A DNA stretch of 42,757 bases from a virus, in the IMG/VR virus record IMGVR_UViG_3300035210_000081, positions 1 through 42,757 of that record. One strand, given 5' to 3'. Positions 184-39,173 of this stretch are shown here, piece after piece. How positions within the stretch are numbered: the stretch's first letter is position 1; each line of letters opens with the position of its first letter. A program made the position numbers and the translations under genes. The notes under the pieces were generated by a model that made no database searches, was not told the origin of the DNA, and saw only the letters and a program-made list of their open reading frames with translations.

Positions 184-666
184 TCAGCTAGCCTCGCCCT
201 CGATATCTTCGGGACCGACAACACCCGTCACGAGGAGCACCGTGCCTGTCGTCTCTACGTCGTGCTTGACCCGGTCACCATATATAGAGGGTGCCAGCTT
301 GCCCGCAGCCCACCTGCGCTGGTCGAAACGGACGCGAGCGCGAGCCGGGTCTGTCTCGGTGTCGACTATCTCCCGCGTCTCGTCCGCAAACCTGTGAGCC
401 TGGGCAAGACGCGCGCGGGCGTAACCCTCGGAAAACTCATGATCTCTGTTCAGTGCAATCCAGGAATATATCGTATCCTGATTTGGCATTTCTGGATCAC
501 GGCATATCTGCAGGACGCTCTCGCCGTTCGCCATTCTGCAACAAATCTCGGCGCCCAACACCTTGGTGTATATCGACGGACGACCGCGTGGCCGCTTCGG
601 CCTCGCAACAACAACAGCCTTGCCGTTCGCCTTACGTGCCATCAGAAATGCCGGGAATTCAGCCAC
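184..666 (-). CDS. terS: Terminase small subunit (Sf6-type)
   Basis: Binds the packaging site and hands phage DNA to the large terminase. The 160-residue protein starts with a basic segment (RPKRPRGRPSIYTK), followed by the HTH-like part with ICRDPEMPNQDTIYSWI, and an acidic/helical C-terminal half with DPARARVRFDQRRWAAGKLAP and YGDR. This pattern is characteristic of Sf6-like small terminases. The start is taken as GTG at 666; an ATG at 642 is the alternative, and neither has a clear Shine-Dalgarno site. It is far from terL in these coordinates but directly upstream of the packaging genes if the ends are joined. In P22-like phages the pac site lies within this gene; I cannot locate it here. 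Confidence 0.85.
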   Translation of the reverse strand: MAEFPAFLMARKANGKAVVVARPKRPRGRPSIYTKVLGAEICCRMANGESVLQICRDPEMPNQDTIYSWIALNRDHEFSEGYARARLAQAHRFADETREIVDTETDPARARVRFDQRRWAAGKLAPSIYGDRVKHDVETTGTVLLVTGVVGPEDIEGEAS

Positions 667-2686: not shown

Positions 2687-3028
2687 AGCGACGGAGCGAC
2701 GCAAGGCGCCGCTGTACACAGCCCGGGACATACTGCGCATATGTGTGTGTGTGTGTGTACACGCGTGTACGCGTACGCGTGCAGGGGGTCCGCCCGTGGC
2801 TGTAGCGTCTCCTTGCGTCGCTCCGTCGCTGAGCGACGATAAGCGACGATAATTCGTGAACCAGAAACACCAGCGAGCGACGCAAGCGACGCTAAAACCG
2901 GACGCCGCAACACAGCGACGCTGAGCGACGCTAAAATCGGAACCTTTGGCAGCGACGCAAGCGACGCTAGACCGGAGCGGCGGAAAGCGAATTTCAGGCG
3001 CCGCAACACAGCGACGCTGAGCGACGCT
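2687..3028. repeat. AGCGACGC iteron-like repeat cluster (candidate origin or control region)
   Basis: The non-coding gap between the primase gene (ends 3041) and the gene starting at 2671 is packed with the octamer AGCGACGC and close variants. It occurs mostly as pairs 9-10 nt apart: 2876/2885, 2914/2924, 2951/2960 and 3010/3020. Single or diverged copies lie at 2687, 2695, 2832 and 2842, with inverted copies at 2815-2822 and 2824-2830. A 29-bp unit is repeated exactly at 2904-2932 and 3000-3028. The pairs alternate as two unit types (A at 2876 and 2951, B at 2904 and 3000). Such arrays usually bind a replication initiator or regulator; its place next to the primase-helicase favours an origin, but this is not proven. 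Confidence 0.75.
2734..2783. repeat. 50-bp perfect alternating purine-pyrimidine tract
   Basis: From T2734 to A2783 every step alternates pyrimidine and purine, including a TG/GT dinucleotide run (about 2741-2758) and several CGCGTACGCG-type stretches. Such tracts can flip to Z-DNA under negative supercoiling. It lies inside the repeat cluster beside the primase, 60 nt upstream of a small gene. It may help strand opening or topology control; alternatively it is just a microsatellite. Confidence 0.8.
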
Positions 3029-3040
3029 GATTTCCGCACG

Positions 3041-5569
3041 TCAGTCGACCACATGAAAATGGCTCCTTGTCTCAACCGTGGGTTTGACCCGCACGCCTAC
3101 GAAGCCCCGGCCGCGGAACAGGCCGCAGTCCTTGTCCCGTCGGTAACCGCGTCGCTCCATGGCCGGTGCAAACCACCGCATCGACCTCGCCGGCTCGCCG
3201 CGTGCCTCTGCCCACGCGGACCAGCTGGCGAACAGGACGCCCTGCGCGTCGCCCAGGTAGTCGGCTTCGTCGCAGCACTCCGCCACCCACTGGCCGAGCT
3301 GGTCTTGATCCGCGAAATATTCATCCGTCGCAGCGGTGACGACGCGCGGCCGCATCAGCCCCGACTGTTGCCACTTCAAACACCCTTCGATCAGCCATCG
3401 GAGGATGCCGGCCGCCTCGCCGAGCAGCCGGGCTGGCAATTCCTTGTCCACCACCGTCGGGACAAACAGGAACGTGGCCAGGTCGACGCGACGCCGTGCC
3501 GCGGCATCGACATTGCGCAGCACCGGCTTGTGGTTGCCCGACATCGTTATTTTGAATTCAGGAACGTAAGTAAAAAAATCCTTGCACATGAACCGAGCCG
3601 TTATCGGATCGCCTCCAGTCACTGCCTTGATTTTTGCCTCCTCCCAGCTTCTCCCCTCCTCCGTCTCCGTCGCCAGCACCAACCGCGCCCCGCGCAACAT
3701 CGCCAGGTCGGCCGGGTGCTTGCTGCCGAATGTCGACGCTGTGAACGTATCGAGTGAAGCCACTACGGAATACCCGCCAAAGATGGCATTCAGTAAGTTA
3801 AGCAACACCCCTTTGCCGTTTTTCCCAGGCCCATACAGGAACAAAAGACACTGCTCTGTCGTTATTCCGGTCAAACAATATCCGCCCCACCGCTGCAGAT
3901 ATTCCATTACCTCGCGGTCACCCATGGTCGCCTGCTCAAGGAACGCGAGAAAATGCGGGCAATCGGCGGTGTCGGCCGGGGTGACGCTGGTGCATTTGGT
4001 GATCAGGTCCGTGGGTCGTGCCGGCCCCAGCAGGCCGGTGCGCAGGTCGACGGTGCCACCTGGTGTGGCGAGCAGCCAGGGGTCGCGGTCGAACACGTTG
4101 ACGGCGACGGACACGGCGCGGTCGGCGCGTGACAGGCGTTCCACGGCGCCGATGAACCGGGCTGAGCCGACACTTACCGGGTCCGCGTCAGGCGTCCGCA
4201 CCGACGTGCCGCGCGCCAGGTCGAAAGCCAGCTCGGTGCGGTCCTCCGCCCATATGTAGCCGTTCCAGGCGTACCACCGCCCGGTTTCGTGGCAGTAGCG
4301 CAGGCGTTCGCCGTGCTCGACGACGAAGGCCTGTGCAACCTTGTGCTCTGCGGGCTTGGGCTTGGGTGGTGCTTTCTCCTTGGCCGGCTTGGGCGGGGGC
4401 TGGTTGACAGAAGCGTCGGTTTTTCGGGTTTGGTTGCCCTGCTCCTCGTCGCTCTGTTCGCCCTGCTCGCCGTCCCCGTCCACATCGGCCGACGGGATGC
4501 CGAACGGCTCCGGCCGCACCCAGCCGACCTGGCGCGCGTGAAAGAAGATGGTGCCGGCCCCGGCCGTGCGCGGTGGCGGCGCCGGTCCGCGCTGTGATGA
4601 ACAGATGCGCGCCCAGGCCGCCAGCGTCTCGTTGGCGTTGTATTTGCCTGACTTTTGGGACCAGGCGTCCCAGGCGTCAAAGCCCCGGGCAGATCCGCCC
4701 CAGGCGTGCCAGCAGGCATAGCCGCGGGCGATCCATGCCGCATACGAGGCATCATCATTTGCTGATGCCGCCATGGCTGATGCCAGCGCCACCGGGTTGG
4801 CCTGTGGCACGCCTGGCGCCCCTGCGTCGGTCGGGGGCGCCAGGTGCACGGACGCCAGCCCCTCCGCCTCCGCCGCGGCGCGTAGCTTGTCGAGCGCATC
4901 GGCCAGGTGCAGCTCCGTATCAGGGTTGTACTCCACGATGGTCGACAGCACCGGATTGGTCGGGTCTTTCAGGTTCCAGGAACCCGGCCACCTGTAAGGG
5001 TGCGCCACCGGCACGCCGGTGCGGTCGGAGCCGCACAGCTGCGCCATCAGCTGCCGCGCCTCCTGCAGCATGGCCAGCGCCTCCGCCCCCTCCGCCGCCT
5101 CCGATAAGCGCCAGTGGTGGTGACCTTTGCGCTGGAGCTCGCCCGTCTGCGGGTCGGCCCAGATCGAGCCGGACCGCGTGCCGACGGTCGGATGTCCCAA
5201 AATGCTGCACAGTTTGAGGCGGCTTGCGTCGGGGTGCTCGTCCATTTCCGCCGACAGCGTCAGCCCGGCCGCGACATCGGCCGACCGGGCCGACGTCGGG
5301 CTGTGGAACACGCAGACCGGCGGCGCGAACACCGCCGGCGCCGTCGCCATGGCGCAGTCCGCTGCTCCCGCGGCGGCGGCATCAACCACTACCGGCAGAC
5401 CGGCGCCGCCGAGCACGATGCCCCGGATGAACAGCGGCGCCTTGCTGCGGTCGACCTGGTCAAACCCCCGCAGCGACACATAGGCGCCGTCTGTTGCATA
5501 TCGGAATAAAGCCGATACGAAGCGCTCCAGCTCCGCACGATCACACGGAAACGGCAAATTGGTCGACAT
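3041..5569 (-). CDS. Primase-helicase (RepB-type primase region plus SF3/D5-like helicase)
   Basis: 842 residues. The N-terminal part (about 85-205) has LSAEMDEHPDASR and HPYRWPGSWNLKD, typical of plasmid/phage RepB-like primases. A PriCT-2-like region follows (about 272-325, SYAAWIARGYACWHAWGG). After an acidic and Lys/Pro-rich linker (360-408) comes a D5-type helicase. It has Walker A YGPGKNGKG (579-587), Walker B-like RLVLATETE (629-637), and SGNHKP plus an arginine cluster near 677-694. It should prime and unwind phage DNA during replication. It reads out into the iteron-like block downstream and follows the ssDNA-binding candidate by 24 nt. The same architecture occurs in phages and plasmids. 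Confidence 0.9.
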   Translation of the reverse strand: MSTNLPFPCDRAELERFVSALFRYATDGAYVSLRGFDQVDRSKAPLFIRGIVLGGAGLPVVVDAAAAGAADCAMATAPAVFAPPVCVFHSPTSARSADVAAGLTLSAEMDEHPDASRLKLCSILGHPTVGTRSGSIWADPQTGELQRKGHHHWRLSEAAEGAEALAMLQEARQLMAQLCGSDRTGVPVAHPYRWPGSWNLKDPTNPVLSTIVEYNPDTELHLADALDKLRAAAEAEGLASVHLAPPTDAGAPGVPQANPVALASAMAASANDDASYAAWIARGYACWHAWGGSARGFDAWDAWSQKSGKYNANETLAAWARICSSQRGPAPPPRTAGAGTIFFHARQVGWVRPEPFGIPSADVDGDGEQGEQSDEEQGNQTRKTDASVNQPPPKPAKEKAPPKPKPAEHKVAQAFVVEHGERLRYCHETGRWYAWNGYIWAEDRTELAFDLARGTSVRTPDADPVSVGSARFIGAVERLSRADRAVSVAVNVFDRDPWLLATPGGTVDLRTGLLGPARPTDLITKCTSVTPADTADCPHFLAFLEQATMGDREVMEYLQRWGGYCLTGITTEQCLLFLYGPGKNGKGVLLNLLNAIFGGYSVVASLDTFTASTFGSKHPADLAMLRGARLVLATETEEGRSWEEAKIKAVTGGDPITARFMCKDFFTYVPEFKITMSGNHKPVLRNVDAAARRRVDLATFLFVPTVVDKELPARLLGEAAGILRWLIEGCLKWQQSGLMRPRVVTAATDEYFADQDQLGQWVAECCDEADYLGDAQGVLFASWSAWAEARGEPARSMRWFAPAMERRGYRRDKDCGLFRGRGFVGVRVKPTVETRSHFHVVD

Positions 5570-8198: not shown

Positions 8199-8243
8199 GC
8201 GTGCAACCGGGAATTTCTATTGTTACGTGTGGAGGTGCTACTG

Positions 8244-8600
8244 GTGGTTGACCAAAACGAACGAAGGGTTTTGATGAAAGCAACGGGAAGAAGATTGTAC
8301 ATGCTTCGTAGTATTTTCAGACTATCGCAATCACGTGCTGCATCTATGTGTAATCTAAGTCAATCAGGCTGGGCGAAATTTGAAAATGGAGATCGTTCCC
8401 TAGATTGGATGTATGCTATAGAAATTTCGTATGTTTTCCGGGTTTCGCTTGATTTCCCTTACCTTGGGCGGCCGGGCGGCTGCGACCCGGATTTGCTCGT
8501 GAACCTCTGCAAACTCGCTCCTGATCTGGTGTCGCCGGCGCCTGTCGCGGGTCCCGGACCCGAGCGGCAGGAAACCATGGAATGTCAACCTGCAGTCTAA
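8244..8600 (+). CDS. CI-like XRE-family repressor (short)
   Basis: About 118 residues. GRRLYMLRSIFRLSQSRAASMCNLSQSGWAKFENGDRSLDWMYAIEISYVFRVSLDF is an XRE-type HTH with the usual 'S...W.KFENG' turn. There is no C-terminal peptidase/LexA-like domain with a Ser-Lys pair, so it is not a RecA-cleaved repressor of the lambda type. Start options: GTG at 8244 with GGAGG 8 nt upstream (chosen), or ATG at 8274 with GAAGGG. The gene is AT-richer than its neighbours. It is divergent from the Cro-like gene, suggesting a lysogeny switch. Confidence 0.75.
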   Translation: MVDQNERRVLMKATGRRLYMLRSIFRLSQSRAASMCNLSQSGWAKFENGDRSLDWMYAIEISYVFRVSLDFPYLGRPGGCDPDLLVNLCKLAPDLVSPAPVAGPGPERQETMECQPAV

Positions 8601-8891
8601 AAAACCTACGATCCACCTAATACCTCCGGTTACATTTGGCGATATAGTTGTCGACGTACCCGGGTTTGTTCGGACCGGATTGCAGCGAATTCAAGTACAA
8701 TCTGGGCTGATTTGATTTTTATACCGCGGATCGTGTCGATGCGGTGCGTCTCGGCTGGTGCGACACGTCCCGATTTGCGCAGGCGCGCGTTGCCGGTTTG
8801 CCCTATTTCGGAGCGAAGTTAACCGGAGGGCAAGCCGGTTAAACCAGCTTGACACCATATGCGCAAAACGCGCATATGGATCGGACGGGCA
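8601..8891. promoter_or_regulatory. Intergenic control region with two perfect dyads
   Basis: No gene is supported in these 291 nt. Near the right end are two perfect inverted repeats. TTAACCGG (8819-8826) and CCGGTTAA (8835-8842) are separated by 8 nt. CCATATGCGC (8855-8864) and GCGCATATGG (8870-8879) are separated by 5 nt. Between them is TTGACA-like sequence (8849-8854). The second dyad ends 12 nt before the start at 8892. These look like operators controlling the plus-strand operon at 8892-10290; the first could also be a hairpin ending repressor transcription. Confidence 0.6.
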
Positions 8892-9542
8892 ATGACGCCC
8901 GACAGGACCATGCAAGCCATGCCTCCGATTGTAACCGTCGACATCGTCAAGACCACCGCCGGCCAGCAGGTGCGCGTGGTGTGCCCGTACAACGAGTTAT
9001 GGGCGGCCCGCGCCAGGCAGCTGGGCGGCGAGTGGGACGGCGCGGGCCGCGCCTGGCGCTTCGATGTGCGCGACCTAGACCGCGTGCGTGTGGCGGCCAT
9101 GGAGCATTATGGCAGCGACGGCGTGACAGACGACGTGGTGACGCTGCGCGTGGAATTCGCCAACAACGCCGCATCGAAGGATCGCGCCTCGTTCTCGGTG
9201 TTCGGTCGACCGATTGCCCGCGCTTATGGCCGCGACAGCGGCGCTAGGCCGGAGGCCGGCGTTGTTTTCCTGACGGGCGGCTCGCGGTCCGGGGGGTCGG
9301 TGAAAAACTGGTGCACGATCATCGACGCGGATACCATCGTCCTGGTGCGTGACTTCCCCAGGATCGAGGCGGAACGCCGCGTAGCTGAGCAGCCGAACGC
9401 GGGGCGCGGCATCCTCTATGCCATCGAGCCGGAGGCGGTGCCCGTGGACGTTGACGCCCTGGCGGCTGAGCGTGCCAGGCTGGTGGCCAGGCTGGCCGAG
9501 ATTGACGGGCAGCTTGTCGCCAACGCCGCGGTGTCGTCATGA
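8892..9542 (+). CDS. Hypothetical phage/plasmid protein
   Basis: 216 residues. The N-terminal part has VRVVCPYNELWAARARQLGG and WDGAGRAWRFDVRDLDRVR, a repeat-like 'LGGxWDxxxxAWxFDxRD' motif I recall in proteins of plasmids and phages without known function. It ends in a coiled-coil-like segment (DVDALAAERARLVARLAEIDGQL). The ATG at 8892 follows GGACGG; an ATG at 8859 would overlap the 8855-8879 dyad and is less likely. First gene of a three-gene plus-strand operon coupled by ATGA overlaps. Confidence 0.7.
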   Translation: MTPDRTMQAMPPIVTVDIVKTTAGQQVRVVCPYNELWAARARQLGGEWDGAGRAWRFDVRDLDRVRVAAMEHYGSDGVTDDVVTLRVEFANNAASKDRASFSVFGRPIARAYGRDSGARPEAGVVFLTGGSRSGGSVKNWCTIIDADTIVLVRDFPRIEAERRVAEQPNAGRGILYAIEPEAVPVDVDALAAERARLVARLAEIDGQLVANAAVSS

Positions 9543-10039
9543 CCCCCGACCGTCTGCGCCAGTGCCTGAACCTGATGGGCTGGTCCAACCGTCACCTTGC
9601 GCTCATGCTCGACCGGCCGGAGAGCACCGTGCGGCAGTGGCTCGCCGGCGCCGTGCAGGTGCCGGTCGACACGGCGGAGTGGCTGGAAGCGCGCGCCTGC
9701 CAGGCCGCGACGACGCAGCCGCCTGGTGTCGACATCAGCGCCGCCGCGGCGACCCTGCGTGACCTGATGCACGCCGGCCTGGTCGGCCCCACCGGCCACG
9801 CCCCAGCCCGGGAATACAACAACGTCATGGCGGCGGCTGCGCCTGGCGAGCGCCTGGCCATCGTGGAAACGGACGCCGCGGGCTACCCGCTTATGGACGA
9901 GCCGTGGAACGCCGTCCGGTATCCGGACGGGTCCGCCTTGATCGTCACGCACGTCCGCGGGCGCGATACGGTGGATTTTTGGAAGGCTGTCGACACGCTG
10001 CGCGGCTTCGACGTCGTGCGGGCTGGGGTGGCGTCATGA
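9539..10039 (+). CDS. Hypothetical HTH-containing protein
   Basis: 166 residues, ATGA overlap with the upstream gene. The N-terminus (LRQCLNLMGWSNRHLALMLDRPESTVRQWLAG) is a clear helix-turn-helix of the XRE/CopG-like DNA-binding kind. The C-terminal half (RLAIVETDAAGYPLMDEPWNAVRYPDGSALIVTH) is of unknown fold. Possibly a transcription regulator of this operon or of the neighbouring switch; inference from the HTH only. Confidence 0.7.
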   Translation: MTPDRLRQCLNLMGWSNRHLALMLDRPESTVRQWLAGAVQVPVDTAEWLEARACQAATTQPPGVDISAAAATLRDLMHAGLVGPTGHAPAREYNNVMAAAAPGERLAIVETDAAGYPLMDEPWNAVRYPDGSALIVTHVRGRDTVDFWKAVDTLRGFDVVRAGVAS

Positions 10040-10341: not shown

Positions 10342-10419
10342 ATCCCCGCGCTGGCGGGGAACATAACCGGGCGTGTCGTACGTCCGAAGTCGGATCATCC
10401 CCGCGTTGGCGGGGAATGT
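10342..10419. repeat. Two CRISPR-repeat-like hairpins (type I-E-like)
   Basis: Two copies of a hairpin element, ATCCCCGCGCTGGCGGGGAA at 10342-10361 and the same with one change (C to T) at 10397-10416, start 55 nt apart. The stem CCCCGC/GCGGGG with a 4-nt loop and an AT dinucleotide before it resembles type I-E CRISPR repeats. The second has CGGATC upstream, as in I-E repeats that start CGGTT. There is no third copy, no cas gene and no leader. It may be a phage-borne solitary repeat or mini-array, or simply duplicated terminator-like hairpins following the terminator at 10310. Confidence 0.5.
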
Positions 10420-12627: not shown

Positions 12628-12965
12628 GACAGTCCCACCATGGCCGGCGGTGGCAGCACGAGCGGCCGGACCTGGTCGCGCCATAGGTGCAGGCAAAATG
12701 GGTGGAAGTTGATGTGCTGGGCTGTTGGCACGTGCAGCTGTATCGCCGTCTCCTCATTGCGAAAAAACAGCCGTTTGATAGTTTCCATTTCATGCCAATT
12801 AGGACAACGATTAGCACGCGAAACAGAAACATGATCCCAGCCAAGCCCCGTTGACGCTATTACCTTCAGTCCGCGCCCATCTACCGGAGACGGGACGATG
12901 AACACGCCACCGTCTATTGCTTCAATAGCCAGTCGAAACCGCGTCAACTTCGCCATGTCGTCCAT
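12624..12965 (-). CDS. DUF7694-like protein
   Basis: 113 residues: MDDMAKLTRFRLAIEAIDGG, VPSPVDGRGLKVIASTGLGWDHVSVS, and NWHEMETIKRLFFRNEETAIQLHVPTAQHINFHPFCLHLWR. This matches the DUF7694 pattern (a phage protein of unknown function with a conserved HINxHPFCLHLWRP end). Start ATG with AAGGA upstream. First gene of the minus-strand block, divergent from the RepL-like gene. Confidence 0.75.
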   Translation of the reverse strand: MDDMAKLTRFRLAIEAIDGGVFIVPSPVDGRGLKVIASTGLGWDHVSVSRANRCPNWHEMETIKRLFFRNEETAIQLHVPTAQHINFHPFCLHLWRDQVRPLVLPPPAMVGLS

Positions 12966-13043
12966 TGCGCTGTCCTTTTATGACAGATTGGCATACGGGT
13001 TGTGACACGACTACCGGCGATTGTGAAGGGTTGGTTTGCGGTG

Positions 13044-13129
13044 GGGTGGCCGCATCGGTGCGGGATTTCTCGGCATCGGTGCGGGATTTCTCGGCATCGG
13101 TGCGGCCACCCTGCCGCACGAGTTTTCCA
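13044..13129. other. Iteron-like array with flanking dyad and DnaA-box-like site (candidate replication origin)
   Basis: Three copies of GCATCGGTGCGG start at 13052, 13073 and 13094, exactly 21 bp apart (two turns of DNA). The array is enclosed by a perfect 11-bp inverted repeat, GGGTGGCCGCA (13044-13054) and TGCGGCCACCC (13101-13111). A TTTTCCACA sequence (13122-13130 region), one change from the DnaA box TTATCCACA, follows. It lies 160 nt upstream of the replication initiator gene, between divergent transcription units. This is the layout of a plasmid-type origin. Confidence 0.65.
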
Positions 13130-13286
13130 CAGAAACCGCCCACAAGAGGGGTAAGGGGAGATATCTAAATAATCTTTCTCGCGCGCGCGTACGCCCCCGC
13201 ATTATGCGCGCGGCCGCGAGGCGGCTTGATTTATAGCATCAAGGGTGTTGTCATTATCCATCAAGCCATATGGAGGATATCCACAC

Positions 13287-13856
13287 ATGGTGATGGGCCA
13301 AAAAAAGCGCCCCTGCGCTACCCTTAGTAGGCAGGCCGCAACCGCACTTTGTAATTTTCTGGAGGCTATGGAAGGGGTGCCGCCGGCAGCTAAATTAGAG
13401 CTGGCTTGTGCCATAGAAAGCCGCGTGGGGCCGGATGCGTGGAAGGGGAATTGGTTCTTCATGATGGTGGATATGTTTCGCGTCCAGAAAATACAGGAAT
13501 GGATAGCAACAAACTCCCAGCGTCCAATGAAAGGGGTGCTGGTGTGGACGCGGTGCATGAAAAGTGCCGACATGAACGACGGAGAAGCAAAAATAGATCG
13601 GGGCGCATGGGCTGATGAACTCAGAATTGCGCCAAGCGATGTCAGCCGCGCCCTCGGGGAACTCGTAAAATGCAACGCACTTATACGTATTCGTGACGGC
13701 AACAAGTACCGATACTTCGTTAACCCCCGTGTGGCGACAAATATAGCGGGAGAGGACGAGCGCACCGCCAAGCAGATCGCCGCCCCCGAAGTCGCAGGGA
13801 TAACTGGCCGTTTCCCGGGTCCGCAAATCCGTGTGGTGGGCGGCACCGCGGCGTGA
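13287..13856 (+). CDS. RepL-like winged-helix replication initiator
   Basis: About 189 residues. The central part PMKGVLVWTRCMKSADMNDGEAKIDRGAWADELRIAPSDVSRALGELVKCNALIRIRDGNKYRYFVNPRVA is a winged-helix of the plasmid RepL/initiator kind: recognition helix 'SDVSRALGELVKCNALIR', then the wing 'GNKYRYFVNP'. The ATG at 13287 has GGAGG 9 nt upstream. The iteron array upstream is the natural binding site for such a protein, either for origin firing or autorepression. A plain transcription regulator is the alternative. Confidence 0.7.
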   Translation: MVMGQKKRPCATLSRQAATALCNFLEAMEGVPPAAKLELACAIESRVGPDAWKGNWFFMMVDMFRVQKIQEWIATNSQRPMKGVLVWTRCMKSADMNDGEAKIDRGAWADELRIAPSDVSRALGELVKCNALIRIRDGNKYRYFVNPRVATNIAGEDERTAKQIAAPEVAGITGRFPGPQIRVVGGTAA

Positions 13857-14143
13857 CCGCCCCCACCCCCGCCCCCGACCCTCTCCCGCATTGGACGGAC
13901 CAGGTGCGCGACGACGGGGTGTACGTGACCTGCGTGCCGTTTCAGAACGCCGCGGGCGATGAAGCATGGGTTGCCGTGCGGCCTGGCCGGCTCCCCGTGC
14001 TGCTCTGCCCGTGCTGCGGCCGGGCGATGACCACCCTGCGCGCCGCCCAGCTGGTGGCCGATGCCGTGTTCCCGCGCCAGGCGGTCGACGACGGCCAGCC
14101 AGACGAGGCCCAGGAATGGCGAGACTTCGACCCCGAGTGCTGA
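13853..14143 (+). CDS. Small Cys-motif protein
   Basis: 96 residues. Contains LLCPCCGRAMTTLRAAQLVADAVFP, a CPCCG knuckle typical of small phage proteins of unknown function. GTG at 13853 overlaps the initiator stop (GTGA), so the two are co-translated. No other domain is seen. Confidence 0.6.
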   Translation: MTAPTPAPDPLPHWTDQVRDDGVYVTCVPFQNAAGDEAWVAVRPGRLPVLLCPCCGRAMTTLRAAQLVADAVFPRQAVDDGQPDEAQEWRDFDPEC

Positions 14144-14261: not shown

Positions 14262-14453
14262 CTACGGACACCTGGCGCGCCGCAGGGCGTACTCCGCGTC
14301 AGCCAGCACGTACTCCGCATCAGCGAGGTCGCGCTGCAGCGCCGCCACGCGCAGCCCGGCCGCCAGCACGTCGGCCTCCAGGCCACCGCACGGCGTCGGC
14401 CGGACATCGTCCGACACGGTGAAAATCTGATGCAGCCTCTGCAGCAGGGTCAC
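14262..14453 (-). CDS. Small coiled-coil protein at the end of the late operon
   Basis: 63 residues from GTG at 14453 that overlaps the o-spanin stop. MTLLQRLHQIFTVSDDV..., then LRVAALQRDLADAEYVLADAEYALRRA with a repeated LADAEY motif forming a helix/coiled coil. Unknown role; its coupling to the spanins suggests a lysis-related accessory. Confidence 0.5.
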   Translation of the reverse strand: MTLLQRLHQIFTVSDDVRPTPCGGLEADVLAAGLRVAALQRDLADAEYVLADAEYALRRARCP

Positions 14454-14848
14454 AGCACAGGCTCCCCTCGGTCCAGCTTCGCCAGGTAGGCCGACAGGGC
14501 CGCCACCGCGTCGCGCGCGGCCGCCAGGCGGTCCGTGTAGCGCGGCCCGCGCGCCGTGCGCTGCAGCGCCGCCATGGCCGCCTGGGCCTCGCGGGCGAAG
14601 AAGCGCAGCCGCTGCAGCTCGCCGGCCTCGGAGCTGGCGCCGGCCGCGCGCACGGACCGGGCGGCTGCGTCGTCGTAGGCGCGCACCAGGGCGGGCGGCG
14701 GCGGCGGCACGACGGGCGGTGCCACCGCGGGCCGCACCGCCCGCGGCGGGGCTGCAGGGGGCGGGGCGGCATCAACCGGCGTCGCCTCCGGCAGCGCGCA
14801 CGCCGCCATCATCAGGGTCAGCGCCAGCCATGCCCCTCGCTGCGTCAT
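14450..14848 (-). CDS. Outer-membrane spanin subunit (Rz1-like lipoprotein)
   Basis: 132 residues. The N-terminus MTQRGAWLALTLMMAACALP is a lipoprotein signal with lipobox MAA-C (Cys at about residue 17). A long Pro/Ala-rich segment (about 24-53) follows, typical of Rz1, and then a helical C-terminal half. It should bridge the outer membrane to the Rz-like partner and fuse membranes at lysis. Its ATG overlaps the i-spanin stop (ATGA): adjacent rather than nested as in lambda. Confidence 0.7.
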   Translation of the reverse strand: MTQRGAWLALTLMMAACALPEATPVDAAPPPAAPPRAVRPAVAPPVVPPPPPALVRAYDDAAARSVRAAGASSEAGELQRLRFFAREAQAAMAALQRTARGPRYTDRLAAARDAVAALSAYLAKLDRGEPVL

Positions 14849-15303
14849 CGCTTCACCTGCACTGGCCTGTTGGTTGCGCGGTCATACAGAAACCCCAGCC
14901 GCTCGCGCTCTACCGCCAGGCTTTCGCGGATGGCTGATGCGGCGTCGCGCGCGGCGTCCTGCTGCCCCGTCAGGGCGCGCAACACGCCTTCGATCCTGGC
15001 GAAGTGCTCTTCCGCGGTCGCGCGGTGCACCAGGTTGTCGCGTGACGCGTCGCCCAGCGCATCGACCCGCGCCGACAACCGCACCACCGCGTCGTGCGCC
15101 GCCACAGCCTCGGCGATCAGATTGGCGTTGGCGCTCTGGTGGTTCGCCAGCAGCGTCGCGGTGGTTGCGATCAGGCTGGCGACGCCACAGATGGTCGCCG
15201 CCACCCACCAATAGCGGCGCAGCATTTCAAAATTCGCCACGGTGAGCAGGCGCGGGCCGTCGCGCGTCCCGTCGTGCGCGTCCTCGTTCCGATCGTCGCT
15301 CAC
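14845..15303 (-). CDS. Inner-membrane spanin subunit (Rz-like)
   Basis: 152 residues from GTG at 15303 (GTGA overlap with the holin). The sequence is VSDDRNEDAHDGTRDG, then one membrane segment YWWVAATICGVASLIATTATLLA (about 36-58). A long periplasmic helix follows (ANLIAEAVAAHDAVVRLSARVDALG...EEHFARIEGVLRAL). An N-terminal anchor followed by coiled coil, next to an Rz1-like gene, is the i-spanin pattern. Identification rests on topology and context, not on sequence identity. Confidence 0.65.
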   Translation of the reverse strand: MSDDRNEDAHDGTRDGPRLLTVANFEMLRRYWWVAATICGVASLIATTATLLANHQSANANLIAEAVAAHDAVVRLSARVDALGDASRDNLVHRATAEEHFARIEGVLRALTGQQDAARDAASAIRESLAVERERLGFLYDRATNRPVQVKR

Positions 15304-15662
15304 GAGGGGCCGCTTTTCAGCGATGCCAGCGCCTCGTCCTTGCGCGCGCTGCCAGCGCTGGAGCCGACCCAAAAGCCTATGACCTGGCTTGCGTTGGCTG
15401 ATGCCGCACCCAAAACCAGCGACAAGATGGCGACGGTTGATGCAGGCAGGTCGCCGCGCATCGTCAGTGCCAGCGCGATGCCGGACAGCACGGCGTAGGT
15501 CAGGATGGTAATCACGCTCACCACCGGCGCACCCCACGTCAGGATCGAGCGGGCCACCGGCTCGCGTAAGGCGAGGGCCGCGCGCAGCCGGAGCACGGCA
15601 GCCGGGTCCGTCACGCCCGCGGCTTCGCACGCCGCGACGATCGGGTCTGATGTGTCTGTCAT
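15300..15662 (-). CDS. Holin-like membrane protein
   Basis: 120 residues. Soluble N-terminus (TDTSDPIVAACEAAGVTDPAAVLRLRAAL), then two hydrophobic segments (VVSVITILTYAVLSGIALALT and TVAILSLVLGAASANASQVIGFWV) and a short basic tail. This is like phage holins of the 3TM-holin type. It lies between the endolysin side of the cassette and the spanins. ATG at 15662 is chosen; a GTG at 15728 would add 22 residues and overlap the upstream gene. Confidence 0.6.
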   Translation of the reverse strand: MTDTSDPIVAACEAAGVTDPAAVLRLRAALALREPVARSILTWGAPVVSVITILTYAVLSGIALALTMRGDLPASTVAILSLVLGAASANASQVIGFWVGSSAGSARKDEALASLKSGPS

Positions 15663-15705
15663 TGTTCGCTCAAAATAAAACGGTGGTGGTGCTAAAATGT
15701 CGGCG

Positions 15706-15927
15706 TCACTTATACCATCGTCCGGCACGATCCTTGACCCATTTCGTCAGCAATCTTTCAAGCATCAAAACGGTGGGCGCCTTCGGGGAATTCGCCAGGT
15801 ACGTGATGGGCGTGCCTGGCGCGGCGTCGGCCACCTGATGCGCAATAAGAATGACATCATTCGGGAAGGCCGCCCGCAGCTCCGCGAACGCCGCGGCCGC
15901 CCGTGCAGACGGGACCTGGTTCGTCAT
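15706..15927 (-). CDS. Hypothetical small protein
   Basis: 73 residues, MTNQVPSARAAAAFAELRAAFPNDVILIAHQVADAAPGTPITYLANSPKAP..., ending KWVKDRAGRWYK. The ATG overlaps the preceding stop (ATGA). Function unknown; part of the lysis-region chain. Confidence 0.6.
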   Translation of the reverse strand: MTNQVPSARAAAAFAELRAAFPNDVILIAHQVADAAPGTPITYLANSPKAPTVLMLERLLTKWVKDRAGRWYK

Positions 15928-16124
15928 GGGGTCCTCCGGTTGGATGATGCGGCATAGCCCAGGATGCCGGCGCAGCGGCGGCAATGGCTCGTCACGCCGC
16001 GCGCCAGGTTCTGCGGCCGGACGGCGCGCACCGCGCCGCACCGGCATCGACAGACCCAGTACCCGGACACCAGGCGATGAAGGACGGTCCAGCCGCCCAC
16101 CCGCACGCCTGGTGCGAGGATCAC
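15924..16124 (-). CDS. Small zinc-ribbon protein
   Basis: 66 residues: WVCRCRCGAVRAVRPQNLARGVTSHCRRCAG, two Cys pairs spaced as a zinc ribbon, a recurrent small phage protein of unknown function. The ATG overlaps the YkgJ-like stop (ATGA). Confidence 0.6.
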   Translation of the reverse strand: MILAPGVRVGGWTVLHRLVSGYWVCRCRCGAVRAVRPQNLARGVTSHCRRCAGILGYAASSNRRTP

Positions 16125-16870
16125 CCCTCGGCCGGGTTGGTCAGCATCCTGCGCATAACTGCCAATGCCTCTTCCCGGGTCGGCTCGCGACCGCCGCCCA
16201 GCTTGCGCAGGATTTCTGTCTTGATGTGGTCCGGGGCTGTTTTGAGCAGGTGCACAGCCCCCATTTTCTTGGGGAACTCAGGATCGTTCAAAACCTCTAG
16301 CAGCACGTCGCTGGCAGAAAAGCCCTCGTTGCTCGCCCTGCGGCGCGCAACCGCGACCATGGACCCAAACTGCGCGGCCGCCAGGAACGCATCAGAGCGT
16401 TCGCTGTCCGGCTGGAACAGCCAGACAGGCTGCACGTGGTCGCCGTCGTATTTGTCCCGCATGTTGACGAGGGAAAACGCGCGGCAGTCATAGGTTCGGC
16501 ACGCGCTCGGCCGGTGCTCGTGGATGGTGCAGCCGTCCGGCCCCAGGTGGACGCATGCGCCGTCCTCGCGCTTGCGCAGCATCAGCACGCCATCCCGCGG
16601 CACCAGGTCCATGTGCATCAGGTCAATGGCCGTTTCCTTCGCCGGGTCGACGTCCACCCCGGCGTGGTAGCAGCACTGCGTGCACCCGCGGCACGGTACG
16701 TCGAGCTGAAGGCGCGTACCGGCGCGCTCTGCAGCGATGGCGTTTTGCCACGCGGTCAAAACCCTAATCGGGTCGCCGCCGATCCTGGCTGGCTTCACCT
16801 GGTCATCAAGCAAGTCGCGATATTCGGTATCGCCCCCTACTCGCCCCTGTCGTCGCTTCGCTTCACCCAT
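16121..16870 (-). CDS. YkgJ-family zinc/iron-chelating protein
   Basis: 249 residues. Start at ATG 16870 (MGEAKRRQGR) with AGGGGAAGG upstream. The Cys-rich core is CRGCTQCCYHAG, CVHLGPDGCTIHEHRPSACRTYDCR: the CxxCxxCC...CxxxxxxxCxIxxxRPxxCRxYxC pattern of YkgJ (PF03692-type) metal-binding proteins. In bacteria these bind zinc or an Fe-S cluster; the role is poorly known. It lies between endolysin and holin genes, an odd place for a metal-binding enzyme, so it may modify a virion or lysis protein. Longer frames upstream overlap the endolysin. Confidence 0.8.
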   Translation of the reverse strand: MGEAKRRQGRVGGDTEYRDLLDDQVKPARIGGDPIRVLTAWQNAIAAERAGTRLQLDVPCRGCTQCCYHAGVDVDPAKETAIDLMHMDLVPRDGVLMLRKREDGACVHLGPDGCTIHEHRPSACRTYDCRAFSLVNMRDKYDGDHVQPVWLFQPDSERSDAFLAAAQFGSMVAVARRRASNEGFSASDVLLEVLNDPEFPKKMGAVHLLKTAPDHIKTEILRKLGGGREPTREEALAVMRRMLTNPAEG

Positions 16871-16910
16871 AGCCTTCCCCTCTATGTTCACCCGCGATAA
16901 CATATCCTTA

Positions 16911-17525
16911 TCACGTGTGAGGCGGGGGTGCCGCAATCGCCTCGCCCAGCTCCTGCTCGATACGGACGGCATCCAGGCACATCGCGAACAGGCGGCGCGA
17001 CCAGCCGTGCGGCTGGCCATAGGACGCGCCGAAAGCCTGCCACTTGCCGCCCAGGCTCGACAGGTAAGCCAGGTGCCAGGCTTGGTATTCGCCGGCCGCC
17101 TCTATGATCTGGTCAGCGGTGCGCAGCCTGGCGACCGCGGCCAGCGTGACTTTGCCAACCACGCCATCAGCCGCGACGCCGACGGCATGCTGCAGCCACC
17201 GCCGTGGGTCGCCGCCATTCACCGCGCCATCAAACGTCAGCAGGGCCGCCCACGGTGGCAGCAGGTGGCAGCCCCACCACCGCCAATAGCCCCAGAAATA
17301 GGCTTCGACGCTCAGTGCCCGGTCGAGGTCGCGCACGTCGCGCGGCATGCGGCGGCGGACATCATCAGGCAGCCGCGCCAGCGTCGCCGGCCAGCTCTGC
17401 GTATCGTGCCCGTATTTTGTTATGCCTCCGGTGTCCTGCTTGTCGTCAGACAGAACACCCTCCGCGACAAGCACCCAATCAACCACGCGGGTGAAAACTT
17501 CGTTGTATGTGATTGGATCGTTCAC
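16911..17525 (-). CDS. Endolysin, GH108-type N-acetylmuramidase
   Basis: 204 residues, GTG start with an AGGGGGG site. TRVVDWVLVAEGVLSDDKQDTGGITKYGHD carries the family signature, with Glu22 the expected catalytic residue, and the C-terminal part (VGVAADGVVGKVTLAAV...AAGEYQAWHLAYLSS) is a PG-binding_3-like domain. It degrades peptidoglycan at lysis. There is no signal peptide, so release depends on the holin. Confidence 0.85.
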   Translation of the reverse strand: MNDPITYNEVFTRVVDWVLVAEGVLSDDKQDTGGITKYGHDTQSWPATLARLPDDVRRRMPRDVRDLDRALSVEAYFWGYWRWWGCHLLPPWAALLTFDGAVNGGDPRRWLQHAVGVAADGVVGKVTLAAVARLRTADQIIEAAGEYQAWHLAYLSSLGGKWQAFGASYGQPHGWSRRLFAMCLDAVRIEQELGEAIAAPPPHT

Positions 17526-30011: not shown

Positions 30012-30749
30012 TCACCACTGCCCCGACTGGAACGAACCGGAGGAACCTGCCGCCATGCCGGAGCCGCGCCTGCCGGACGCCCCCGCCGGCATGCCGAGCC
30101 GCGGCATCTGCGTGTTCGCCACAAAGATGGTGTTGCGGGCCGCCCTGGCGCTCGCCAATAGCCCCTGATCCGGCGGCAGGGCGTAGGCCTGGCGCAGATA
30201 GACAGCCAGGCTGTACGTCAACGCCAGCTCATACTCCGGCGGAAAAGCCAAATCAGCCTGCAGCCCAACGGCTGATGGCAGCTTGGCCTTCGTGACGATG
30301 TGGATCTCATATTGCGCAGCCGGCGCGATCGGCCAGACGTGCAGCACCCCGCCCGGGTATGCGCTCTCGTAGTAAACGGCCGATGGGAACGTCGACAGGT
30401 TCTTGATGGCGACGACGGCCCAATCCTCCGCCGCGTCGATGATGGCCAACGGCGTGTCCATGGTGGTGGGGCCAGGCGTGTTCAGCATCCGGACGAAAGC
30501 CGCCTCTAGCTTGTCCGGCCTGGCGATGTCGAAATCCCCGCCCGGCATGACGGTATAGGTGGCGGCCCCGGTGGAAATCAGCGGCGTGTCGACGTCGGTC
30601 CAGACCAGCCACCTTTTGCGCTGCCACTGCGCCAGCAGGGCGTTCAGCGTGCCCAGGCCTAAATACAGGTCCTCCGCATAGATGGTTTGCACCAGCGACA
30701 CGGCACCGGCGTTGATCAGCGCCGTCCGGATCAGATCGGCGGCAATCAT
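30012..30749 (-). CDS. P22 gp4-like tail accessory factor (copy 2)
   Basis: 245 residues: helical N-terminus IAADLIRTALINAGAV..., LGTLNALLAQWQRKRWLVWTDVDTPL, and the family end with a Ser/Gly-rich tail. It closes the portal hole and links to the tail. Start overlaps the upstream stop (TGATG); paralogue of the next gene. Confidence 0.75.
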   Translation of the reverse strand: MIAADLIRTALINAGAVSLVQTIYAEDLYLGLGTLNALLAQWQRKRWLVWTDVDTPLISTGAATYTVMPGGDFDIARPDKLEAAFVRMLNTPGPTTMDTPLAIIDAAEDWAVVAIKNLSTFPSAVYYESAYPGGVLHVWPIAPAAQYEIHIVTKAKLPSAVGLQADLAFPPEYELALTYSLAVYLRQAYALPPDQGLLASARAARNTIFVANTQMPRLGMPAGASGRRGSGMAAGSSGSFQSGQW

Positions 30750-31480
30750 CAGCCCTCACCTTTCGGCGGTGCTGACATCGCCGAGAAGATACCGCCGCGC
30801 CTGGTGGCCTGCGGCTGCACCGCCTGCGCCAGCTGCGTCACGCTGTTGATGATAGACTGCAGCGACCCCTGTGCCCGCGCCGTCACTGACGGGTCATCGC
30901 CGAGCGCATAGAGGGGCCGCAGGTTGGCTGCCAGGTTCCAAATCAGCGCCGTCACGTATTGGAGGGGCAGACCAAGCACATCAGTCAGGTGTGCGTACTG
31001 GCCCAGGCTGGCCTTGGCGGCAACATGCAATTCATAGAGCGCAGAGGGCGGAGGGTAGAAGTAGATGGTGCCCGTCGCCCCTGACTGCGCATCGTAGAAA
31101 TAGCTCTCCGGCAGCCCGGCCAGGCTTTTCGCCGGCATCCTGCTGTAACCCTCGCGGCTCATGAACGGATACAGCGGTGTGTCGACGCCCGTACTGATCA
31201 GCCGCGCGAAAGCGGCGTCGACCTTGTCTGGGCGCTGGCCCGCAAAATTCAGCGTGAACGCGCCACCGATGCCAACCGTATAGCTGACCGCGGCGGTGGA
31301 CGCTGCCACCGCCTCGACAAGGTCGAATACCAGCCATCGATTTACCTGCCACTCTGCAAGTATGCTGTTCAACACTGTAAGAGCGTCGTTTGCATCCTCG
31401 GCCATCGGGGTCTGACCGACGCCGGTTATCCCCGCTATGCGCAAGCCGAATGTGACCAGATCACCAACCGTGTTGATCAT
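30749..31480 (-). CDS. P22 gp4-like tail accessory factor (copy 1)
   Basis: 243 residues: INTVGDLVTFGLRIAGITGVGQTPMAEDANDALTVLNSILAEWQVNRWLVFD is the P22 gp4 / head-closure pattern. The following RPDKVDAAFARL and YVTALIWNLAANLRPLYALGDDPSVTARAQGSLQS match too. Tandem paralogue of 30012-30749, giving two related head-tail connectors. Confidence 0.8.
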   Translation of the reverse strand: MINTVGDLVTFGLRIAGITGVGQTPMAEDANDALTVLNSILAEWQVNRWLVFDLVEAVAASTAAVSYTVGIGGAFTLNFAGQRPDKVDAAFARLISTGVDTPLYPFMSREGYSRMPAKSLAGLPESYFYDAQSGATGTIYFYPPPSALYELHVAAKASLGQYAHLTDVLGLPLQYVTALIWNLAANLRPLYALGDDPSVTARAQGSLQSIINSVTQLAQAVQPQATRRGGIFSAMSAPPKGEG

Positions 31481-32793: not shown

Positions 32794-32879
32794 GGGGCAC
32801 GACACACAGAGGTTAGCCACCGCCTCCGGTTCGGTCAGGGGGCACGACACACAGAGGTTAGCCACCGCCTCCGGTTCGG
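32794..32879. repeat. 41-bp tandem direct repeat before the capsid gene
   Basis: GGGGCACGACACACAGAGGT... to ...CCGGTTCGG at 32794-32834 is repeated at 32839-32879 with only a 4-nt spacer. The two copies look identical by eye. It lies 115-200 nt upstream of the capsid start. Confidence 0.85.
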
Positions 32880-36394: not shown

Positions 36395-36864
36395 CCAGGT
36401 GTCCAGGGTGTGCCATCAGGATTGGCGGAGTAGCGCGTGCCATCCGGCCTGGTCCCGTAATGCGGCGCGCCGTCCTGACGAAAATACAAGGGCCCGCCCG
36501 GCCAGCCTTCCGGCAGGAAGGAACCGACAGCGTAACCACCGCCTGCACCATCGTGGAACATGGCGCCGGCGCCGTCCTCGCCGCTCGGTAGCCGCGTCAT
36601 CCACCCGCCAGGTGGCGCGCCTGGTGGTGCGTTGCCGGTGTTCCCAGCGCCACCGTGCGATGCGAGGTAAGCCAGGCCCGCCTTTGTCGGCAGACCGGTC
36701 GCCGGGTCGACCATGCCGGCCGCCACGTGCTCGCCGTGGTGCTGCATCAAGTAGGCCTGCAGCGGATTATCGACCGGGGCCGGGCGCTGCCCGCCCTGCG
36801 CAATCAGCTGGCGGAGGGCGGCGCCGCGGTCGCCGTCCTGGTCAAGGGGGTTGCTCCCGCTCAT
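36391..36864 (-). CDS. Hypothetical structural-cluster protein
   Basis: 157 residues, MSGSNPLDQDGDRGAALRQLIAQGGQRPAPVDNPLQAYLMQHHGEH..., Gly/Pro-rich (GNAPPGAPPGGWMTRLPSG) and ending with GTRPDGTRYSANPDGTPWTPG. ATGA overlaps on both sides, so it is translated with the portal. No family recognised. Confidence 0.6.
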   Translation of the reverse strand: MSGSNPLDQDGDRGAALRQLIAQGGQRPAPVDNPLQAYLMQHHGEHVAAGMVDPATGLPTKAGLAYLASHGGAGNTGNAPPGAPPGGWMTRLPSGEDGAGAMFHDGAGGGYAVGSFLPEGWPGGPLYFRQDGAPHYGTRPDGTRYSANPDGTPWTPG

Positions 36865-39173
36865 TGTGCCCTTACCTCCGTTGCGTGTCGTCTCGGCTGT
36901 CCGTAGATCGGGTGCATCATCGGCGCCGGTGGCGGGGCCGGTCCGTCAGGCTCCGGCCCGCCGGCGTCGTCACCAGGCGGCCCGGCGCCCTCCGGCTCCG
37001 GCCCTCCGGCGTCGTCTTGCTCACCATCAGGTGGCGCCCCGATGCTCTGTTGATGCGCGGCGTCGGCCGCCTCGTGCTCGTGCATGATGGGCAGCGCCGG
37101 CATGCCCAGCATTTCGCTCAGCATGCTGCGGACAAGCACCTTGAAGGCCGCCGGATCGCCGGCGCTGATGGCGGCCAACCGCCGCGTCTCGGCGTCGTAA
37201 TCCTTGATTATGTGGTCGTTGCCCTTGTCCTGCAGGTCGGCAGACAGCCCCGCCACTTTCTGCTGCGCGGCCTGCATCAACTCGTGGAATTTGCCCTGCA
37301 TTTCCTGCATTTGCTGCTGCAGCTGGGCGACCTCCGGAGGCGGGCCATTTTTGTATTGCGGCGGTAGCCCCTTCCTGAGCCGTTCGGCCAGCTCCTCGGC
37401 GCCCGGGAAATCGCTGTTCTGCGCCCAAAAGTCTCCGACAATCTGGAAAGCCGCAGGGTTCTGCTTCATGATTTCGGAGAACGCGTTGCTGGCTTCCTGC
37501 CGCTGCGTGCCGTAGGACGGCCCGACATCCGCTTCGATGCCGTAACTTCCGATTGTCGGGTTGAAGATGACCTTCGGATTGGGGCTATCGGGGTCTGACT
37601 GCAGGGCGTCGGCCTCGCCTGGCGATACCGGCTGCGGTCCCTCCGGCCCCAGCGCCACGTGCTGGTGCGCCTGCGGTGCGCTCGGGATCATGTGGATGTC
37701 GCTTTCGCTGCCATCCTCTCCCATTACTTTCATTACGCGCGCGACGTCATAGACCCTTGGGATAAGATCGAGTATTATTCTACCGACTTGGCGAATACCT
37801 TTCGCCTGGTTATCGATATAATGATAGGTCGCATTGTCGCCCTGGCGCTGCCTGGCGTTGATGGCCGACCCGGACCGCTCGTTGCCAGGCTGGCCCATTT
37901 CGGCTTGATACTGTCCCGAAACCATCATCATATCGTCGCGCGCGATGCTCATGCCCTGCACGTAGGCCTGCGCCATGGTCGGCGGCTGCGAGCGCTGCGG
38001 CGGCGGGATTGGCCGCCCCTCTTCGTCGATACCGTTATAGACCAGCACTGCATGATTTTCGACGTTGGCGGTTTTCCAGTCCTCCATATAGCCGGCCAGC
38101 GCTTGCACCGTCCCGACGTAAGGCGCCTTGCTCTGCAACGCGACGTGTTCAACGGCGGAGGAGGACCAATAATTGTACATCCTCTGTGCATCAATGAGCG
38201 CCCTTGTATGGCCCTTGCGGTCCATTTCGTCGCCCGAAATGATCTCTTCACCGATAAACGGAACGATTGGGATGTATCTTCCCAGCCATTTGCCGCGGTG
38301 CGTGATCTTGTCTCCGGAAATCCGGAACCATTCGACCGAATGAAGCGATATTTCGCGCTCCTGGACGATGTATGGCTCTATCGCCTTGCGCTCTTTCGGC
38401 TTCAGGCTGGATTTCCGCCTTGTCGACCCGTCCGACAGCAGCAGCAGCGTGTCGCCGCTCTCATTCCGGCGCCAATACTCGGCCTCCCGAACGTGGTCTA
38501 TGTTGTGCCAGTCGTCAGCAGGGCCAAAACCGACCGATGATGGCGGTTTTGATCCGTCCGCGTCGTCATAACGGTCTTTTGGGATGTCGTTGAACACAAA
38601 GCCGAAATTCATATCAGATTTGTCGTATTCCCGCGCGTCCGGGTCGAGGTAGACGGTCCGCGGGTTGGCAATCCTGCGGACGAAAATTTCCTGGTCAAAA
38701 CTATCATCGTCCGCGTAGTCAGTAACTACCCTGACGTAGCCTATACCGGTTTCTACCTGATGATAGATGGCTGTCGAGTAGGCGTCCGCCGCCTTGCTCT
38801 GGTATTCGATGCGTCGGATCAAGCCGCTGAACACCTGCGCCGCGGCATAGGTGGCGCCGCCACCGGTTGGCGTGACCTTGATGGCGGCTTTGTGCTGCTT
38901 CGCGTCGTTGACGATCTGCAAATTGTGCTGGCGACACCGGTTGTGCGTCAGGCAAGGCCGATCACCCCTCGCCCTCAACACGGCCTGGTCCCACTGTGCG
39001 CTGTTGTAAGCATCGCCGTTCGCGAACCTGGCATCCAATAGAGCGTTGGCGCGCGCCTTCGCCTCCCACTTGTCGCACCTGGTGAAACGCGCCTTCGCTT
39101 CGGCGATGATGCCGGCGTCGTCGTCAACCGGGTCCGGCGCGTCGGTCCGCTCGATCAGGTCCAGGCCCATCAT
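36861..39173 (-). CDS. Portal protein (P22-type)
   Basis: 770 residues from ATG 39173 (ATGA overlap with terL stop; ATG 39185 is an alternative). CDKWEAKARANALLDARFANGDAYNSAQWDQAVLRARGDRPCLTHNRCRQHNLQIVNDAKQHKAAIKVTP followed by VETGIGYVRVVTDY and RRIANPRTVYLDPDARE is the P22-like portal pattern. It forms the dodecamer at the head vertex. The C-terminal about 100 residues are Gly/Pro-rich. Coiled segment (LQQQMQEMQGKFHELMQAAQQKV) near 560. Confidence 0.9.
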   Translation of the reverse strand: MMGLDLIERTDAPDPVDDDAGIIAEAKARFTRCDKWEAKARANALLDARFANGDAYNSAQWDQAVLRARGDRPCLTHNRCRQHNLQIVNDAKQHKAAIKVTPTGGGATYAAAQVFSGLIRRIEYQSKAADAYSTAIYHQVETGIGYVRVVTDYADDDSFDQEIFVRRIANPRTVYLDPDAREYDKSDMNFGFVFNDIPKDRYDDADGSKPPSSVGFGPADDWHNIDHVREAEYWRRNESGDTLLLLSDGSTRRKSSLKPKERKAIEPYIVQEREISLHSVEWFRISGDKITHRGKWLGRYIPIVPFIGEEIISGDEMDRKGHTRALIDAQRMYNYWSSSAVEHVALQSKAPYVGTVQALAGYMEDWKTANVENHAVLVYNGIDEEGRPIPPPQRSQPPTMAQAYVQGMSIARDDMMMVSGQYQAEMGQPGNERSGSAINARQRQGDNATYHYIDNQAKGIRQVGRIILDLIPRVYDVARVMKVMGEDGSESDIHMIPSAPQAHQHVALGPEGPQPVSPGEADALQSDPDSPNPKVIFNPTIGSYGIEADVGPSYGTQRQEASNAFSEIMKQNPAAFQIVGDFWAQNSDFPGAEELAERLRKGLPPQYKNGPPPEVAQLQQQMQEMQGKFHELMQAAQQKVAGLSADLQDKGNDHIIKDYDAETRRLAAISAGDPAAFKVLVRSMLSEMLGMPALPIMHEHEAADAAHQQSIGAPPDGEQDDAGGPEPEGAGPPGDDAGGPEPDGPAPPPAPMMHPIYGQPRRHATEVRAQ

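Follow-up and report, generated by a model that had tools for sequence, protein, structure and literature searches.

Known phage-plasmids and small-plasmid replicons

Recognition of a phage-plasmid usually depends on partition genes or on a Rep of a known family. Among cluster A mycobacteriophages, the integrase can be replaced by a parABS system, with or without repA (PMC7157519), and metagenomic phage genomes of 37-38 kb from cryoconite have been proposed as phage-plasmids from their plasmid genes (PMC4490671). Small plasmids offer a second point of reference: the Paracoccus pMOS7/pMARC1 origin is reported to comprise three 16-bp iterons with 5-bp spacers (a 21-bp period), an adjoining DnaA box and an inverted repeat over the rep promoter, while the pMARC2/pAPA01-060 Rep proteins form a separate group (PMC3832669).

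Here we describe a locus within an IMG/VR record of 42,757 bases, a whole virus record classed as linear and hereafter called the window. The best reading, to which we assign a probability of about three in four, is that of a phage-plasmid in which the rep gene and origin of a cryptic plasmid take the place of the integration cassette, and whose prophage would be extrachromosomal. This reading is preferred because of the Rep homology, the origin layout, the absence of an integrase and the occupation of the integrase position.

The locus resembles each described system in part. As in cluster A mycobacteriophages, a plasmid cassette appears where an integration cassette would be, and the initiator gene runs opposite to the virion genes (PMC7157519); those phages differ in possessing parABS and in their initiator, morphology and host group. 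With P1 and the classical phage-plasmids, the window shares virion genes, a plasmid-type initiator with iteron-like sites and what appears to be a further replication module for the lytic cycle; unlike P1, it has no partition genes that we could find, belongs to a P22-type podovirus and encodes an initiator that has been placed in no P1 family. The cryoconite phage-plasmids were assigned by ParA/ParB and toxin-antitoxin genes (PMC4490671), whereas the present assignment uses an initiator and an origin. The likeness to pMOS7/pMARC1 concerns the origin layout described in PMC3832669.

Closer still are small cryptic plasmids from Acetobacteraceae and their relatives (pAPA01-050, p5317, pTF4.1, p1318-9 and pCP157_22), which encode homologous Rep proteins, at only 26-34% identity, and present the same order of elements, from the DnaA-like box through a G-rich block and an AT-rich block with ATCTA to the doubled promoter repeat, most clearly in pAPA01-050 and p1318-9. 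In the window this element lies inside a 42.8-kb phage genome and has, in addition, the 21-bp repeats and the long hairpin, neither of them seen in the small plasmids examined. On the phage side, phiAX1, PAE2 and Acetobacteraceae prophages resemble the window in their P22-type portals (39.7-44% identical) and in their coat and tail-accessory genes, but where the window carries rep, after the lysis end and before the early genes, they have an integrase.

A plasmid-type initiator gene

The rep gene (13287-13856, plus strand) lies in an open frame of 13245-13856, with the ATG at 13287, preceded by GGAGG, as the likelier start; a small gene without a family match (13853-14143, plus strand) overlaps its end. 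The rep protein matches 19 plasmid records, most of them shorter than 6 kb. Among 50,697 phage records it has no match, and querying with a plasmid relative likewise gave no phage. These relatives, annotated as hypothetical or helix-turn-helix proteins, include those of Paracoccus pCP157_22 (1,211 bp, with rep as its one annotated gene), Acetobacter pAPA01-050 (3,035 bp), Komagataeibacter p5317, Acidithiobacillus pTF4.1 and Roseomonas p1318-9. A profile built from plasmid Reps alone recovered the window protein as its single match in six frames (E 3e-25, 84.6 bits). Of 397 Acetobacteraceae genomes, 26 carry homologues, for the most part on 3-13 kb contigs, and the family is present in 3 of 385 members of a wider Alphaproteobacteria sample. 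To judge from these relatives, the gene is a genuine plasmid-type initiator.

The protein has no curated family match in Pfam or NCBIfam and matches PHROGs weakly (e.g. DnaD-like loader, replication initiator). Its predicted structure, reliable for residues ~62-145 only and poor in the remainder, is a winged helix, the fold being assigned to residues ~60-150. Foldseek returned nothing at E <= 0.001, and fold searches gave generic winged-helix proteins, so an initiator family is neither claimed nor excluded from them. An earlier sequence-only reading of the window had proposed a winged-helix initiator gene of RepL type; plasmid Rep homology and the predicted fold agree with the former, but the RepL name is not supported, as the PF05732 profile gave no match at E <= 1 to the window protein or to four plasmid relatives. 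Membership of the pAES4/pMARC2/pAPA01-060 Rep group was also rejected, the pAPA01-060 protein being unmatched by the plasmid-Rep profile at E <= 10.

Single-sequence and alignment queries of IMG/VR revealed no relatives of rep. A 41.9-kb contig with a distant rep (G271:C422) was considered as a second phage-plasmid and dismissed, with no other window protein matched in the 39.5 kb of it that were compared; the contig bearing the nearest rep in the tree (L097) is of plasmid size (4.8 kb) and not a phage. Two of the plasmid relatives show features of their own: Roseomonas p1318-9 (3.5 kb, same Rep family) additionally encodes a ParB-like protein and a recombinase, and Komagataeibacter p5317 has two rep homologues adjacent in tandem, at 3391-3945 and 3942-4355.

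Origin layout upstream of rep

The region before rep contains three iteron-like copies of the 12-bp unit GCATCGGTGCGG on the plus strand (13052-13105), at 13052-13063, 13073-13084 and 13094-13105, with spacings of 21 and 21 bp; the first two repeats are perfect 21-mers. The exact self-match at offset 21 spans 33 nt; 500 dinucleotide-shuffled versions of the intergenic region gave at most 10. Around the repeats lies an 82-nt imperfect inverted repeat (13037-13118), recognised from arm matching and folding, whose 25-nt arms (13037-13061 and 13094-13118) are 84% matched; it is predicted to fold into one long hairpin of -32.6 kcal/mol, against -16.6 for shuffles (z -7.7). The three 21-bp-spaced iterons of the sequence-only reading are thereby confirmed, and its enclosing 11-bp dyad proves to have longer arms than claimed. 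The exact 21-bp repeat does not occur in IMG/VR, and an Rfam search gave no match.

Downstream, the near-DnaA box of that reading is present as TTTTCCACA (13123-13131, plus strand). Ten one-mismatch DnaA boxes were observed against 10.0 expected, so that a lone match is at chance level and unremarkable; it sits, however, where related plasmid origins have their DnaA box. Next comes AGAGGGGTAAGGGGAGATATCTAAATAATCT (13145-13175, plus strand), a candidate unwinding element identified by eye as the counterpart of the plasmid block GAGGGACTACAGGGAG together with the AT-rich ATCTA block. A candidate rep promoter/operator follows at 13225-13265 (plus strand), consisting of a CTTGAT...ATCAAG palindrome and two CATCAAG copies at 13237 and 13259. 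The region thus combines direct repeats spaced by about two helical turns, a DnaA box and an AT-rich region, all before rep, as in iteron-type origins, an assignment based on just three repeat copies that are putative Rep sites.

The related plasmids share a fixed order before rep: T(T/A)TCCAC, then a block such as GAGGGACTACAGGGAG, then an AT-rich block with ATCTA. Many of them also carry two tandem palindromes, 23 bp apart, immediately before the rep start codon. The counterparts in the window follow the same order, with the DnaA-like box beginning at 13123, the candidate unwinding element, and two CATCAAG copies 22 bp apart, the window having one palindrome. A profile from 12 plasmid origins, run on both strands, produced a single match in the window, at 13123-13151, with an 8-bp insertion; it takes in only the TTTTCCAC-to-AGGGG part of the 13145-13175 counterpart. 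Its E-value of 2.7 is weak alone, and the match carries weight because it is the sole one and falls on the expected strand and in the expected place. None of the plasmid relatives checked has the 21-bp repeats or the long hairpin, a difference that weighs against the preferred reading; a conserved hairpin upstream of the plasmid origins was looked for and not found. Overall, the homology to small plasmids and the common origin layout strongly support a plasmid-type replicon, as the sequence-only reading had suggested.

A probably near-complete P22-type phage genome with rep at the integrase position

Apart from the rep region, the virus is a P22-type podovirus. Its recognised late genes encode the portal (36861-39185, minus strand, the anchor for our prophage comparison), coat, scaffold, head closure and a GH108 endolysin, so that with the terminases the genome has the virion and packaging genes expected of a phage-plasmid. 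Among annotated portals, that of Pseudomonas phage PAE2 is closest (44%), followed by that of Acetobacter phage phiAX1 (39.7%); in the plasmid collection the portal had distant matches only, mostly enterobacterial. The relatives of Rep and of the structural proteins suggest a host in the Acetobacteraceae or a related group.

Terminase subunit genes are usually adjacent. Here, the small subunit gene (184-666, minus strand; Sf6 type, PF20901, 6e-33) and the large subunit gene (39170-41317, minus strand) are neighbours only through the record ends, and a circularly permuted genome is therefore likely. The record is probably a near-complete genome of this kind, cut near the terminase genes; its ends have no exact overlap, so a small gap is possible.

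Neither a tyrosine integrase (PF00589) nor a serine recombinase (PF00239) was matched within the record, in agreement with the sequence-only reading. Measured through the ends, rep lies 3,572 + 13,245 = 16.8 kb from where the portal gene starts, on the opposite strand. Of ten related Acetobacteraceae prophages with enough flanking sequence, seven encode a tyrosine integrase, likewise on the opposite strand, at 12.9-17.7 kb from the portal start (G055, 12.9 kb; G085, 15.4; G174, 16.1; G376, 16.2; G338, 16.7; G011, 17.1; G286, 17.7). The other three (G071, G378 and G327) have no integrase near the expected place, and in G378 and G327 the portal gene is interrupted. In phiAX1 the integrase lies 15.0 kb from the portal, and in PAE2 it directly follows the tail/lysis end. 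In the window, rep adjoins the lysis end of the late region (14450-17525, minus strand), which comprises the GH108 endolysin gene (16911-17525) and short unassigned genes. Like the prophage integrases, rep is transcribed in the direction of the CI-like genes and counter to that of the late and recognised replication genes.

Random placement would put rep in the fitting interval and strand with a chance of ~6%, and the positional match is therefore supporting rather than conclusive. An integration cassette appears to have been replaced by the rep gene and origin of a cryptic plasmid; since we know of no related phage that carries this rep, a single genome underlies the proposed exchange. Support for the phage-plasmid reading comes from three observations: the integrase is absent, rep occupies the position of the relatives' integrases and the genome is near-complete. 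In these respects, and in its plasmid initiator, the phage-plasmid proposed by the sequence-only reading is supported in part; no partition genes were found.

Candidate lytic and lysogenic modules

The phage encodes its own replication protein, a D5_N/PriCT_2 primase-helicase (3041-5569, minus strand). Adjacent to this gene, at 2687-3030 on the plus strand, is an array of 12 AGCGACG copies, mostly in pairs 8-10 bp apart, against two copies elsewhere on that strand of the genome; shuffled windows had at most 2 in any 350 bp. Its position makes it a likely lytic origin, with a partition site as an alternative. The array also holds an inverted pair with an alternating TG/CG tract between. A search for the array in IMG/VR found one contig (L100), which tblastn showed to be unrelated to the window.

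A candidate lysogeny module occupies 8220-10039 (plus strand), with an XRE-type helix-turn-helix gene (8220-8600), a phrog_18108 protein (8892-9542) and a second helix-turn-helix protein (9539-10039). The sequence-only reading took CI/Cro-like genes as a sign of lysogeny. The helix-turn-helix genes are recognised by HTH_31/XRE-like matches that are weak and lie below family cut-offs.

Proposed mechanism and persistence

The acquired segment would be the complete replication module of a small cryptic plasmid of a type found mainly in Acetobacteraceae, with a winged-helix Rep and an upstream origin. In the lysogen, Rep may bind the 21-bp repeats and, with host DnaA at TTTTCCACA, open the downstream AT-rich block; it would then load host replication proteins, so that the prophage is copied as a circular plasmid. 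Rep is probably self-regulated at the repeats over the rep promoter. Upon induction, the phage primase-helicase would take over, perhaps from the AGCGACG array. DNA binding by Rep, replication and the switch between two origins are all inferred here. The more specific scenario, in which an integrase was exchanged for a ~0.9-kb rep/ori segment in one step, separate origins serve lysogeny and lysis, and the element persists without a recognisable partition system, for instance by multicopy replication, is given slightly less than even odds. Multicopy replication is typical of small plasmids.

Partition is the gap in the phage-plasmid hypothesis, as the sequence-only reading had already noted. 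Within the record there is no match to ParA (PF13614, AAA_31), window frames of at least 80 aa contain no ParA-type Walker motif, and no resolution or toxin-antitoxin gene appeared in family scans. The lack of partition genes leaves stable inheritance unexplained, and a novel partition system in the window is possible. In phage-plasmids, a partition system is usual but not universal. The repA gene of cluster A mycobacteriophages, with its flanking intergenic regions, replicates without parABS (PMC7157519), and the missing par genes are therefore compatible with replication.

Should it be confirmed, the locus would show a minimal plasmid replicon of <1 kb taking over from an integrase and altering the mode of phage persistence. 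It would also give a replication function to a gene that is common, but unannotated, on plasmids of acetic acid bacteria. Elements of this type would escape notice, since the Rep family has no match among curated Pfam/NCBIfam families or phage records.

Alternative explanations

The most plausible competing account, though an unlikely one, is that rep and its origin serve the lytic cycle, with Rep marking the start and the primase-helicase doing the remainder, the prophage state being absent or otherwise maintained. The phage does encode a D5-type primase-helicase without any other recognised initiator, and the neighbours of rep are phage genes. However, ~7.7 kb separate rep from the primase gene, and rep is on the other strand, with the CI-like genes; the primase gene has a separate array beside it, and relatives of Rep support plasmids without a phage helicase. 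That the regulator-like fold means a transcription regulator only, with the repeats as its operators, is scarcely credible. The predicted fold does resemble ArsR/MarR/Fur regulators, but initiators are commonly winged-helix proteins and also autoregulate; moreover, several tiny plasmids, one of which has no second annotated gene, encode no plausible initiator other than the homologue, and a conserved DnaA-box and AT-rich origin lies upstream of the plasmid homologues.

Two further accounts concern the record itself. An integrase might lie in an unsequenced junction, leaving rep as an extra; the linear classification and lack of terminal overlap would allow this, yet we regard it as improbable, given that the junction falls between terS and terL while the integrases of relatives lie 12.9-17.7 kb from the portal, that the portal-rep distance already fits this range, and that 42.8 kb exceeds the genome of PAE2 (35.8 kb). 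Less probable again is an assembly chimera joining a small plasmid into a phage contig. This is a single metagenomic contig, no second copy was present in the viral contigs searched, and rep has a GC content of 55.6% and GC3 of 59%, under the phage means of 65.8% and 75.6%. Low GC is, however, also consistent with recent acquisition; phage genes flank rep on both sides (a divergent DUF7694 gene starting at 12965 and lysis-end genes at 14450), no plasmid backbone gene was recognised, and no repeat was found at the edges of the rep region. A plasmid prophage remains the preferred reading.

Additional features of the genome

Several other features were observed in the window. The large terminase (715 aa) has an intein-like C-terminal part, with an intein-splicing-like match at residues 438-673, just under the Pfam cut-off. 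Directly after the plus-strand lysogeny genes, 10342-10416 holds two 20-nt copies of ATCCCCGCG(C/T)TGGCGGGGAA. With their 55-nt separation they look like two type I-E CRISPR repeats around a single spacer. A search for a host by this pair in 397 Acetobacteraceae genomes gave no match, a weak negative because the pattern allowed a period of 58-63 nt against 55 nt in the window. A perfect direct repeat of 41 nt (32794-32879), with copy starts 45 nt apart, lies between the genes for coat and scaffold. Finally, a neighbouring gene pair at 30012-31480, both members of which match phrog_12985 and the head-tail adaptor Ad3 family, is probably a duplication.
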